Part shown: positions 21,333-61,537 of the stretch, in pieces
Layout: each line of letters begins with the position of its first letter
Position numbering within the stretch: the stretch's first letter is position 1
Assembly: GCF_901827185.1 (NCBI RefSeq)
Contig: NZ_LR594671.1
Location: 1,178,001-1,242,000 of the forward strand
Length of the DNA stretch: 64,000 bases
DNA from: Variovorax sp. PBL-E5
GTDB taxonomy: Bacteria; Pseudomonadota; Gammaproteobacteria; Burkholderiales; Burkholderiaceae_C
Direction: 5' to 3'
Made by a program: the position numbers and the translations under genes
The notes under the pieces: generated by a model
The model's input: the letters and a program-made list of their open reading frames with translations, nothing else
Database searches by the model: none
Told to the model about the DNA's origin: nothing

Positions 21333-21418
21333 ACCCCCAGTCTTCGCGCACTTCGTGTCGCTTCGCCAACCCCCTTGCAGGGGGCAACACCTGCGGCCCG
21401 GCGAAGCCGGTTCCGCGG
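21333..21418. repeat. GC-rich intergenic repeat, copy 1 (secA-argJ gap)
   Basis: About 85 bp that match 61455-61537 with gaps. Shared blocks are CACTTCGTGT, CCCCCTTGCAGGGGG (5-bp stem, TTGCA loop) and CCGGCGAAGCCGG followed by TCCGCGG. It fills most of the secA-argJ gap. It resembles REP-type palindromic elements and may stabilise mRNA ends or attenuate transcription. Confidence 0.7.
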
Positions 21419-23553: not shown

Positions 23554-23985
23554 ATGACGACATCATCGCGCAAACATACGGAGGTCGCGGTCGGCATCCT
23601 GATCCGCAGTGACGACGACGCGCTGCTGCTGTCGACGCGGCCGGAGGGCAAGCCCTACGCCGGCTATTGGGAATTTCCGGGCGGCAAGCTCGAGGCCGGC
23701 GAGACGGTCGAGCAGGCGCTGCGGCGCGAACTGCACGAGGAACTCGGCATCACCATCGCCAGCGCCGAGGTCTGGAAGATCACCGAGCACGACTATCCCC
23801 ACGCGCTGGTGCGGCTGCACTGGTGCAAGGTCAGGGCATGGGCCGGCGCGTTCGAGATGCGCGAAGGCCAGTCGATGCGCTGGCAGCAGCTGCCGCTCGA
23901 GGTGACGCCGGTGCTGCCCGGCGCGCTGCCGGTCCTGGGCTGGCTCGCCGAAGAGCGCGGGCTGGCCGCCACGAAGGACTATTGA
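23554..23985 (+). CDS. mutT: MutT-type 8-oxo-dGTP diphosphatase (Nudix)
   Basis: A 143-residue Nudix hydrolase. The catalytic box [24 protein letters not shown] occupies about residues 43-66 in two blocks ([18 protein letters not shown] then HEELGI) and is complete. Preceding GYWEFPGG and the short length fit MutT, which removes oxidised dGTP from the nucleotide pool. The ATG at 23554 lies just after the DUF815 stop. The 3' end overlaps the convergent yacG stop by 7 bp. Confidence 0.88.
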
Positions 23986-24188
23986 CGCTTGGGGTCGCCG
24001 AAGGGATCGTCGTCGGGCGGTGCGTCCGCGGGCATCCTGAAGTCTTCGCTGGCCCAGGCGCCGAGGTCGATGCCCTTGCAACGGGCGCTGCAGAAGGGCC
24101 GGTACGGGTTGCTGGCCGCATAGACGCTGTCTCCACCGCACGCAGGACAGCGAACGATGCGCTCGCCGATCGAATTCGTGGCGCTCAT
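23979..24188 (-). CDS. yacG: DNA gyrase inhibitor YacG (zinc-binding)
   Basis: A 69-residue zinc-finger protein. The four cysteines are in VRCPACGG (about residues 13-19) and [16 protein letters not shown] (about 30-45), the YacG signature, followed by an acidic/proline tail ([12 protein letters not shown]). In E. coli YacG inhibits gyrase by binding GyrB. The Shine-Dalgarno-like AAGGG 7 nt before its ATG is provided by the 76-bp repeat that separates it from zapD. It is the last gene of the minus-strand coaE-zapD-yacG region. Confidence 0.92.
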
Positions 24189-24192
24189 CGGA

Positions 24193-24268
24193 GCACCCTT
24201 GGTGCTTCGCGCCGTCCCGCCAAGCGGGAGCGAGCTTGCTTGGAGCGGTCCGGCGCGGCGCTCATGCG
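24193..24268. repeat. 76-bp intercistronic repeat, copy 1 (zapD-yacG)
   Basis: This 76-bp block matches 49009-49084 at 72 positions with no gaps. It contains a 6-bp stem TCCCGC/GCGGGA with a 3-nt loop, and AGCGAGCTTGCT, which is nearly self-complementary. On the minus strand it begins at the last codons of zapD (including its TGA) and ends 4 bp before the yacG ATG, supplying AAGGG as ribosome binding site. Confidence 0.85.
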
Positions 24269-25017
24269 CAGAGGGTCAGTTCGAACGGCGCCGCATCGGT
24301 GCTTTGGTGCAGGCGGTCGTCGGCTTCGTGCCGCATCAGCCGGACCGACACCATGAGCCGGTTGCCGCTGATCTCCGGAATGAGGCCGAGCAGGGGATCG
24401 ATGCGAAGGCGAAGCAGCTGGAAACTGCGCCCTTGCGGAAGGGTCTGCTGGAACTGGCCGTTGGCTGCGATGACCTTGTACGGCACGTCGGCGTCGCGCA
24501 GGAGCTTGAGCAGCAGGTAGATTGACTCGGCCAGGGGCGCGAGCGTCGACGACCAGCGTTCCAGGTCGGCGCGGCGCTCGGTGGCGCGGCGGTTCTGCCA
24601 CGCGTAGTAGGCCGGCAGGTCGAATTCGCAGGTACCGCCGGGAATGCCCGCGCGGCTGCGGATGCTCATCAGCCACTCGTTCTCGGTCAGCGACTGCCCC
24701 GCCTTGCCGGGCACGGTGTTGAGCGTCGCGAAGTTGCGTTCGAGCTGGCCGACGACCTGGTCGAGCACCGACTCGGAAATCGCCGGGTTGCCGCGGTAGC
24801 TGTTGAAGACGTTCTTGTGCTTGTCCAGGTCTCGCAGCACATCGGCCTTGAGGTCTGCGCGCGCCGCGACATCCATGATCTCGAAGATGGTGACGAGCGC
24901 GTAGTGATGCGAGAGGGCCGAGTCGGCCGGCACCAATTCACCGAGGCGGCGAAACAGATGTTCCAGCCGCAGGTACGTTCGTATGCGCTCGTTGAAGGGG
25001 TACTCGTAGAGGATCAC
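24262..25017 (-). CDS. zapD: Cell division protein ZapD
   Basis: A 251-residue, mainly helical cytoplasmic protein that cross-links FtsZ filaments at the division ring. The N-terminus [21 protein letters not shown] is the DUF1342/ZapD hallmark, and [23 protein letters not shown] lies in the second half. The start is a GTG at 25017 without a Shine-Dalgarno. The final codons and stop fall in the 76-bp repeat. In related genomes it follows coaE directly; here two O-acylation genes lie between. Confidence 0.94.
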
Positions 25018-48263: not shown

Positions 48264-49004
48264 TCAGCCGGCCGGACTGAAGCGGTCGACCCGGTCGGTG
48301 ATGAGGCCGTCGGTGCCGAGCGCGATCAGCCGCTCCGCGGCCCATTCGTCGTTGACGGTGTAGCTCAGGGTTCGCATGCCGGCCGCATGGACTTGCGCCA
48401 CGTTGGATGCATCCCAGAGCGCGTGATTGCACACGATCGCCACGCAGCCGAGCGCCGACGCGCTCTCGAGCCAGCCGGGCGTGAGCGTGTCCAGCAGCAG
48501 GCCGCGCGGCAGCTCGGGCCGGGCCTCCATCGCGCCGCGCAGCGACTCCGGTTGGAAGGAAGTCAACAGGGGCGGTGGCACTTTTGTCCCCGACCAGAGC
48601 CGTGCGCTGAGCTGCGCGACCGCCTCGCCGGTCTGCCGCTCGACGCCGGGCGTCGGCTTGATCTCGATGTTGAGCGCATGAGCGTTGGCCAGGCAGAAGC
48701 GGATCAGGCCTTCGAGGCTGGGAAGCCCCTCACCGGCAAAACGCCGCGAATGCCATGCGCCGGCGTCGAGCTGCGCCAGCTCGCCCCAGGAAAGATCGCC
48801 TGCCGTGCCGCGGCCATTGCTGGTGCGCTCCAGCGTGCTGTCGTGCAGAAGAAAAGGAATGCCGTCGGCGCTGAGCTTGGCATCGCATTCGAACATGCGA
48901 TAGCCGTACTCGGCGCCGAGGCGGAAGGCCGCCAGCGTGTTCTCGGGCGCCAGCTTGCCGGCGCCGCGATGCGCGATCCAGCGCGGATAGGGCCAGGGCG
49001 TCAT
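48264..49004 (-). CDS. ugpQ: Glycerophosphodiester phosphodiesterase UgpQ
   Basis: A 246-residue cytoplasmic GDPD enzyme that splits glycerophosphodiesters to glycerol-3-phosphate and an alcohol. The catalytic HRGAGKLAPENT (about residues 11-22) and ECDAKLSADGIPFLLHD are intact. It has no signal peptide, as for UgpQ rather than the periplasmic GlpQ. It is the last ugp gene; the 76-bp repeat separates it from ugpC and provides AAGGG as its ribosome binding site. Confidence 0.95.
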   Translation of the reverse strand: MTPWPYPRWIAHRGAGKLAPENTLAAFRLGAEYGYRMFECDAKLSADGIPFLLHDSTLERTSNGRGTAGDLSWGELAQLDAGAWHSRRFAGEGLPSLEGLIRFCLANAHALNIEIKPTPGVERQTGEAVAQLSARLWSGTKVPPPLLTSFQPESLRGAMEARPELPRGLLLDTLTPGWLESASALGCVAIVCNHALWDASNVAQVHAAGMRTLSYTVNDEWAAERLIALGTDGLITDRVDRFSPAG

Positions 49005-49008
49005 GCGT

Positions 49009-49077
49009 GCACCCTTGGCGCTTCGCGCCTTCCCGCCCAGCGGGAGCGAGCTTGCTTGGAGCGGTCCGGCGCCGCGC

Positions 49078-49084
<7 letters not shown>
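49009..49084. repeat. 76-bp intercistronic repeat, copy 2 (ugpC-ugpQ)
   Basis: Matches 24193-24268 at 72 of 76 positions without gaps. It includes the TCCCGC/GCGGGA stem, whose loop differs (CCA here, CAA in copy 1) while the stem is kept. On the minus strand it spans the ugpC stop codon and ends 4 bp before the ugpQ start, as in copy 1. Confidence 0.85.
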
Positions 49085-50085
<1,001 letters not shown>

Positions 50086-61454: not shown

Positions 61455-61537
61455 ACCCCCAGGCTTGCCCACTTCGTGTGGCCGCCCGCCCCCTTGCAGG
61501 GGGCGCTGCCGGCGGACCGGCGAAGCCGGATCCGCGG
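61455..61537. repeat. GC-rich intergenic repeat, copy 2 (Tim44-ubiJ gap)
   Basis: Matches 21333-21418 with a few gaps, sharing CACTTCGTGT, the CCCCC-TTGCA-GGGGG hairpin and CCGGCGAAGCCGG followed by TCCGCGG. It lies immediately after the Tim44 gene. A further 70 bp to the ubiJ start contains a -10-like box and nothing else recognised. Confidence 0.7.

Follow-up and report, generated by a model that had tools for sequence, protein, structure and literature searches.

A palindromic repeat of Variovorax with the anatomy of a mini-cistron set between two ATGA stop/start overlaps

Introduction

Several described systems come close to the repeat analyzed here. In most prokaryote groups, about 15% of gene pairs are co-directional and overlapping (PMC6728339). 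The pairs treated in the passages of that paper compared here share an ATGA or TGATG overlap between the stop codon of one ordinary gene and the start codon of the next, with a Shine-Dalgarno (SD) motif near the end of the upstream frame (Huber et al., 2019). REP and BIME sequences are described in the passages compared as short, palindromic and interspersed (PMC3733652, PMC2817692), and GTAG REPs often provide flanking open reading frames (ORFs) with a TAG stop (PMC3733652). RPE, ERIC/RU-1, YPAL/RU-2 and NEMIS are small hairpin repeats with an open frame that is sometimes fused to genes; in the passages compared, they fuse into proteins or extend protein ends (PMC2229807, PMC2759123, PMC10969869). 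Finally, insertion sequences (IS) that target REP sequences have been reported (PMC1525189).

The repeat described here occurs twice in a stretch of 64,000 nucleotides of Variovorax sp. PBL-E5 (contig NZ_LR594671.1, positions 1,178,001 to 1,242,000), referred to below as the window. It carries the ATGA stop/start overlap that marks termination-reinitiation, and shares this overlap and the position of the SD motif with the gene pairs in the passages cited above, to which it adds a complete cistron flanked by one overlap on either side (PMC6728339). Among the open-licence PMC papers listed by literature searches, none was seen to describe an element of this kind in its title or abstract.

Anatomy of the two window copies

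A repeat search delimited two copies of 84 nt with 92% identity, both on the minus strand. Copy 1 (49001-49084) lies between ugpC (49078..50085, 335 aa) and ugpQ (48264..49004, glycerophosphodiester phosphodiesterase family), and copy 2 (24185-24268) between zapD (24262..25017, ending in TGA) and yacG (23979..24188), all four genes being on the minus strand as well. The genes were assigned from ORFs and from Pfam matches to GDPD (UgpQ), YacG, ZapD and, for UgpC, to ABC_tran plus TOBE_2; the Pfam support of UgpC consists of these last two domains, and its precise name was taken from the original prediction.

The layout is the same in both copies: gene A, ATGA, mini-ORF, ATGA, gene B, with two 4-nt stop/start overlaps. 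In copy 1, ugpC ends as GCA-TGA inside the repeat, and its stop overlaps the start of the mini-ORF in the left ATGA (49078..49081, minus strand). As read from the sequence, the mini-cistron (49001..49081, minus strand) begins with the ATG at 49081-49079, runs for 26 codons and stops with the TGA at 49003-49001, which overlaps the start of ugpQ in the right ATGA (49001..49004, minus strand). The mini-cistron of copy 2, read in the same way, also has 26 codons plus a stop (24185..24265, minus strand). The repeat is therefore a mini-cistron, open from end to end, whose stop lies within the ATGA of the next gene. A 534-aa ORF ending at 49001 includes the mini-frame of copy 1.

The original prediction had regarded the repeat as a portable module that fills the gap between two genes, contains the upstream TGA and provides the ribosome binding site, and its local measurements agree with the sequence. 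The TGA of ugpC and that of zapD lie within their copies, the repeat as it was then bounded (49009-49084) ends 4 nt before the ATG of ugpQ, and the orientation relative to transcription is identical in the two copies. The SD-like motif AAGGG is likewise found on the minus strand 7 nt before the downstream ATG, at 49016-49012 (49012..49016) for ugpQ, whose ATG is at 49004, and at 24200-24196 (24196..24200) for yacG, with its ATG at 24188. The suggestion that the repeat precedes the last gene of an operon is plausible for yacG, which is followed by a convergent ORF, and doubtful for ugpQ, where the next ORF is on the same strand.

Three hairpins were predicted on the minus strand of copy 1 from RNAalifold structures: an imperfect hairpin formed by the head palindrome (49048..49079), which is common to the families with 22, 26 and 29 codons introduced below, a second hairpin (49031..49045) and a third hairpin, GGCGC-GAA-GCGCC (49017..49029), directly 5' of the SD motif. 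An Rfam cmscan of window positions 48500-49600 with E values up to 5 returned two matches, both far below the gathering score and off the repeat body.

Copy number and spread among genomes

With up to 3 mismatches allowed, the 35-nt head occurs 26 times in the own genome (7.09 Mb) and the reversed control pattern not once, which bears out the view that the two window copies reflect more than chance. The 3' half with AAGGG was found at 10 places of this genome at up to 2 mismatches. The proteins encoded downstream of the 26 copies look mutually unrelated in a comparison of their translations.

In the genus, 85 of 100 genomes carry the head at up to 1 mismatch, and none of 24 genomes from other families within the order matched the window copy. 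In a scan of named genomes, at least 119 stretches matched; the 80 matches listed include Variovorax, Xenophilus, Pseudorhodoferax, Acidovorax, Hydrogenophaga, Rhodoferax, Roseateles and Pelomonas. A search of a phage collection gave no match, and a plasmid collection yielded two records, both from Variovorax. In plasmid CP063167 the element sits between two permease genes, in a gap of 61 nt for which the gene table, itself incomplete, lists no gene, and in the second record no gene is listed near the element.

Position at stop/start junctions

For a broader survey, 323 loci from Variovorax and related Burkholderiales were reduced to 268 distinct copies with enough flank, after removal of copies flanked by fewer than 400 nt upstream or fewer than 500 nt downstream and of duplicates of the same 120-nt stretch. 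A TGA is present at the fixed place in 250 of the 268 copies, in 226 of these 250 as ATGA, in a collection biased toward TGA by the many loci fetched with TGA-starting patterns. Nine of the 18 copies lacking this TGA are inner units of in-frame tandem arrays. Among the non-tandem copies with TGA, 193 of 222 are coupled at both ends and 29 are not. In a sample of the own genome (an even 400 kb, 20 stretches of 20 kb), the base preceding non-overlapping TGA codons of coding-like frames was C in 108 and A in 22 of 162 cases.

The loci retrieved with a TGA-free pattern, less the copies already obtained with other patterns, comprise 92 non-tandem copies. Among these, TGA was found in 86, ATGA in 80 and coupling at both ends in 73 of the 92. 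Random placement of other copies, which would have spoken against the original prediction, is thus not what is seen, and the description of the repeat as a portable coupling module fits. The idea of a bare ribosome-binding cassette fared less well, given the mini-cistron at ATGA overlaps and the ordinary SD strength of the 26-codon family (see below). A crude strand caller found co-directional frames on both sides, in the sense orientation, for 189 of 230 non-tandem copies; many of the remaining 41 read as the same sense-strand anatomy.

Lengths, phase and tandem arrays

Start-to-start distances peak at 65, 77 and 86 nt, corresponding to mini-ORFs of 22, 26 and 29 codons. The 3' halves of these three families are dissimilar, and one phase prevails throughout. 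Phase was defined as the start-to-start distance modulo 3, phase 2 denoting a coupled mini-ORF and phase 0 a mini-ORF that reads into the next gene. An SD-based rule assigned 208 of the 222 non-tandem TGA copies, leaving 14 unassigned: 192 are in phase 2, 12 in phase 0 and 4 in phase 1, of which at least two phase-1 cases and one phase-0 case look misassigned by eye; since family members share ancestry, these copies are not independent. The 53 other gaps of 45-125 nt in the 400-kb sample are already uneven, with 29 in phase 2, 15 in phase 0 and 9 in phase 1, so that the excess of phase 2 amounts to 92% versus 55%. Ten of the 53 gaps are in phase, open and ATGA-ended, and 8 of the 10 start with CTGA and hence lack a usual start. 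Only two combine a usable start at the TGA with the phase and an ATGA end, and both are hairpin repeats.

The 17 tandem arrays are phased as well. Their units are spaced by 65 or 77 nt where coupled and by 84 or 87 nt where fused, with no case of phase 1. In 16 arrays an unbroken path continues into a frame longer than 90 codons, and in one it reaches the end of the locus. The array of locus L138 consists of four 26-codon units that form a coupled chain, followed by a 284-codon frame. In the 22- and 26-codon families, stop/start coupling between units is retained in most arrays. In six arrays of the 29-codon family (L103, L297, L299, L302, L303 and L304) the spacing is 84 nt and the inner stop is lost, giving fused frames of 57 or 85 codons.

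Hairpins, open frame and Shine-Dalgarno strength

Covariation and frame tests were restricted to copies that measure exactly 65, 77 or 86 nt and have NTGA at either end (182 copies, of which 170 are distinct, with locus L120 counted in two families). The 22-codon family (81 distinct copies) has 32 cells in which both sides of a pair are changed, compared with a mean of 6 and a maximum of 12 in 300 shuffles, and the 26-codon family (48 distinct) has 23 (shuffle mean 2.9, maximum 8), the structure under test being derived from the same alignment and the shuffles keeping the relatedness among copies. The 29-codon family (41 distinct) showed no real covariation, with 2 cells versus a shuffle maximum of 2. 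In the 26-codon family one pair of the head palindrome changes from G-C to A-T in 5 of 48 distinct copies, and double changes affect two adjacent pairs of the third hairpin in 7 of 48. These paired changes alter amino acids of the mini-ORF.

Stops are depleted in the mini frame, where 2 arose versus 18.3 expected; the other frames are partially depleted also (frame 1, 12 versus 23.0; frame 2, 6 versus 14.9). Across the three families, synonymous changes observed and expected were 136/102.5, 59/58.4 and 70/71.1, and non-synonymous changes, in the same order, 233/262.6, 125/123.2 and 220/215.1, so that change at the peptide level is near neutral in two families and mildly constrained in the remaining one. 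Taken together, stop depletion, covariation and near-neutral peptide change suggest that the open path and the structure are kept more than the peptide is.

The SD pairing energy at the downstream start averages -8.2 kcal/mol in the 22-codon family (88 copies), -4.9 in the 26-codon family (53 copies) and -8.5 in the 29-codon family (41 copies). For comparison, the left start, which derives from the host, has a mean of -5.6 kcal/mol; 32 ATGA overlaps of the host average -5.0, and 800 randomly chosen places -2.75. The SD motif of the window's own 26-codon family is thus of ordinary strength, and those of the 22- and 29-codon families are stronger than at host overlaps.

The same junctions in relatives without the element

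Three junctions were followed in relatives, using the best 30 of 59 (ugpC/ugpQ), 60 (zapD/yacG) and 59 (ybgC) positive genomes. By eye, this kind of element is present at 2 of the 30 ugpC/ugpQ loci of the genus and another hairpin repeat at 3; of the rest, 11 have a bare ATGA, 1 has GTGA and 13 have short gaps. Of the 30 zapD/yacG loci, 1 carries this element and 6 carry a sister element, which is degenerate at two of them and present as two in tandem at one; 12 have a bare ATGA and 11 have gaps. These counts by eye are the ones used for the two junctions. Automatic classes were 14 ATGA, 2 GTGA, 13 short gaps and 1 core for ugpC/ugpQ, where the window's own copy was mislabelled, and 13 ATGA, 4 TTGA, 2 GTGA, 5 short gaps, 5 sister elements and 1 core for zapD/yacG. 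At ybgC, where automatic classes were combined with sequence reading, the 30 loci contain 4 elements of three kinds, 22 bare ATGA, 1 TGATG and 3 short gaps.

Over the three junctions, 45 of 74 element-free loci show a bare ATGA overlap. Presence is patchy, and one and the same junction carries different element types in different species. With regard to a target-site duplication, ATGA stands at both ends of the element and in many empty sites; variant bases at the left and right ends match weakly, with G at both ends in three cases and about one expected, so that such a duplication is a candidate feature at most.

Sister repeats and neighbouring mobile elements

Further repeats that run from ATGA to ATGA were found in the 400-kb sample and the window, amid other unrelated hits. 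One has 21 codons and six close copies in the genome, including the query; four of the six have the exact design as parsed, and of the other two, one has a 25-codon frame that is also ATGA-ended and one was mis-indexed. Another sister family has three copies, one of them coupled and two continuing in frame into the next gene.

Other repeats were seen alongside. A second repeat of the window (CCCCTTGCAGGGGG ... CGGCCCGGCGAAGCCGG), at 21364-21418 and 61483-61537, is also present at locus L385; it forms an ATGA-coupled mini-ORF of 37 codons at L385 and not at window position 21364. Similar hairpin repeats lie at ugpC/ugpQ in three relatives (L331, L348 and L353). The reverse strand of locus L397 holds, at offset 17303, a 23-codon mini-ORF from ATGA to ATGA with a long CTCCCTCTCCC/GGGAGAGGGAG hairpin and a sequence unlike the main family. 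At the zapD/yacG locus of one genome (L371 in G019), which is the junction of window copy 2, two different sister elements stand in tandem.

An IS110-family element (PF01548, PF02371) lies directly upstream of the left NTGAGCGCC in 4 of the 26 copies of the own genome (loci L405-L408; C1:3733430, C1:4917892, C1:2869139 and C3:296229), and its far junction likewise carries ATGAG. This IS family may target the repeat or the ATGA junction of the repeat, a preference that is suggested by IS copies examined beside the repeat. The sole PF01797 gene (Y1_Tnp, IS200-like) found in the genome, at locus L384 (C1:1157296-1157625), is about 8 kb from the nearest repeat copy. A link to an IS200-like or RAYT enzyme was rejected, four probes having detected no repeat copy in the 1.5-kb flanks of this gene in the own genome.

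Discussion

The anatomy of the repeat, its recurrence throughout the genus, its presence and absence at ATGA junctions and its phase rule are observed features, as are the hairpin covariation in two of three families and the depletion of in-frame stops. They are probably best explained by a mobile repeat similar to REP and MITE elements that enters ATGA overlaps, is transparent to translation and preserves coupling by termination and reinitiation. A small palindromic element would insert into the ATGA stop/start overlaps within operons, bringing along a mini-ORF of about 20-29 codons, hairpins and an SD motif. The TGA of the upstream gene would then overlap the start of the mini-ORF, and the TGA of the mini-ORF the start of the downstream gene. 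A ribosome finishing the upstream gene could reinitiate on the mini-ORF, cross it and reinitiate on the downstream gene, and because of these two steps the insertion would be nearly transparent to translational coupling. Judged from the DNA, the mini-ORF is likely translated and coupling likely retained across the element, which would presumably be selfish rather than domesticated and moved by some transposase.

A domesticated regulatory module, in which a unit of hairpin and SD motif is kept for tuning the distal gene through SD access, mRNA processing or pausing, is a rather unlikely alternative in spite of the conserved hairpin immediately 5' of the SD motif, the SD strength above that of host overlaps in two of three families and the orientation shared with both neighbouring genes that a crude caller gave for 189 of 230 non-tandem copies. 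Against it speak the patchy presence among species at one junction, the apparently unrelated proteins downstream of the 26 own copies and the merely host-average SD strength of the window's own family. On the whole, the anatomy fits preserved coupling better than newly imposed regulation. An improbable reading is that of an ordinary REP- or BIME-like extragenic repeat whose open mini-frame results incidentally from high GC, common descent of the copies and close spacing of genes. The repeats are indeed palindromic, repeated and mostly intergenic, their other frames are mostly open too and ordinary gaps lean to phase 2 (29 of 53), but the dissimilar 3' halves and the other repeats hold the phase (192 of 208 versus 29 of 53), the spacings of tandem arrays follow it and stop depletion is strongest in the mini frame. 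Moreover, a usable start, the phase and an ATGA end coincide in just 2 of 53 gaps, both of which are hairpin repeats.

Hardly credible is the view that the copies encode small functional proteins (20-30 aa) of one family that gene duplication has spread. The conserved N-terminal half (MSAAPxRxKQAR) and the frame kept open would be expected of such a family, whereas the 3' halves differ among families, substitution is near neutral in two of them and mildly constrained in the remaining one, amino acids are altered by the paired changes and tandem fusions yield 57 and 85 codons.

How far the translation-transparent mobile repeat departs from described elements can be seen from their defining features. 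Like REP and BIME sequences in the passages compared (PMC3733652, PMC2817692), it is a short interspersed palindrome, as judged from consensus hairpins and covariation in two of three families. The GTAG and CGTC tags are absent from both strands of the three family consensuses as inspected by eye. It differs from REP/RAYT systems, as these papers present them in the passages compared, in having only 26 core copies, none beside the PF01797 gene, and a mini-frame from start to stop with an SD motif (PMC3733652, PMC2817692). The consensus ends, ATGAGCGC and CCAATGA, are not the terminal inverted repeats of a MITE. The repeat thus resembles REP and MITE elements and lacks some tested defining features of each.

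Unlike RPE, ERIC, YPAL and NEMIS in the passages compared (PMC2229807, PMC2759123, PMC10969869), the repeat usually stands as a separate cistron that has a start, a stop and an SD motif of its own. Fusion is the minority case: the frame is not one fused within host proteins, as in Rickettsia palindromic elements, and at most 12 of 208 copies are joined in frame to the gene that follows. The IS110-family element that abuts one point of 4 of 26 own copies recalls the IS elements targeting REP sequences, as far as these are described in the passages compared; here the neighbour is a mini-cistron repeat and not a described REP (PMC1525189).

It can also be considered, although tentatively and with more doubt than confidence, that the repeat represents a separate class of mobile elements, a travelling coupled cistron. 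Such a class would be defined by translation, as a mini-gene from ATGA to ATGA with its own SD motif that uses overlaps as landing sites, chains in tandem and exists as several sequence-dissimilar families in one genus. If true, it would spread through operons without breaking them.

The repeat offers a natural design for a portable translation-coupling linker, and its arrays would offer natural chains of multi-step reinitiation, with up to four units, on which the reach of coupling could be tested. It would account for some of the 60-90-nt gaps in operons of the Comamonadaceae. A stop/start overlap seems a poor insertion site, and an element that carries a ready-made relay would provide a way for repeats to spread within operons.
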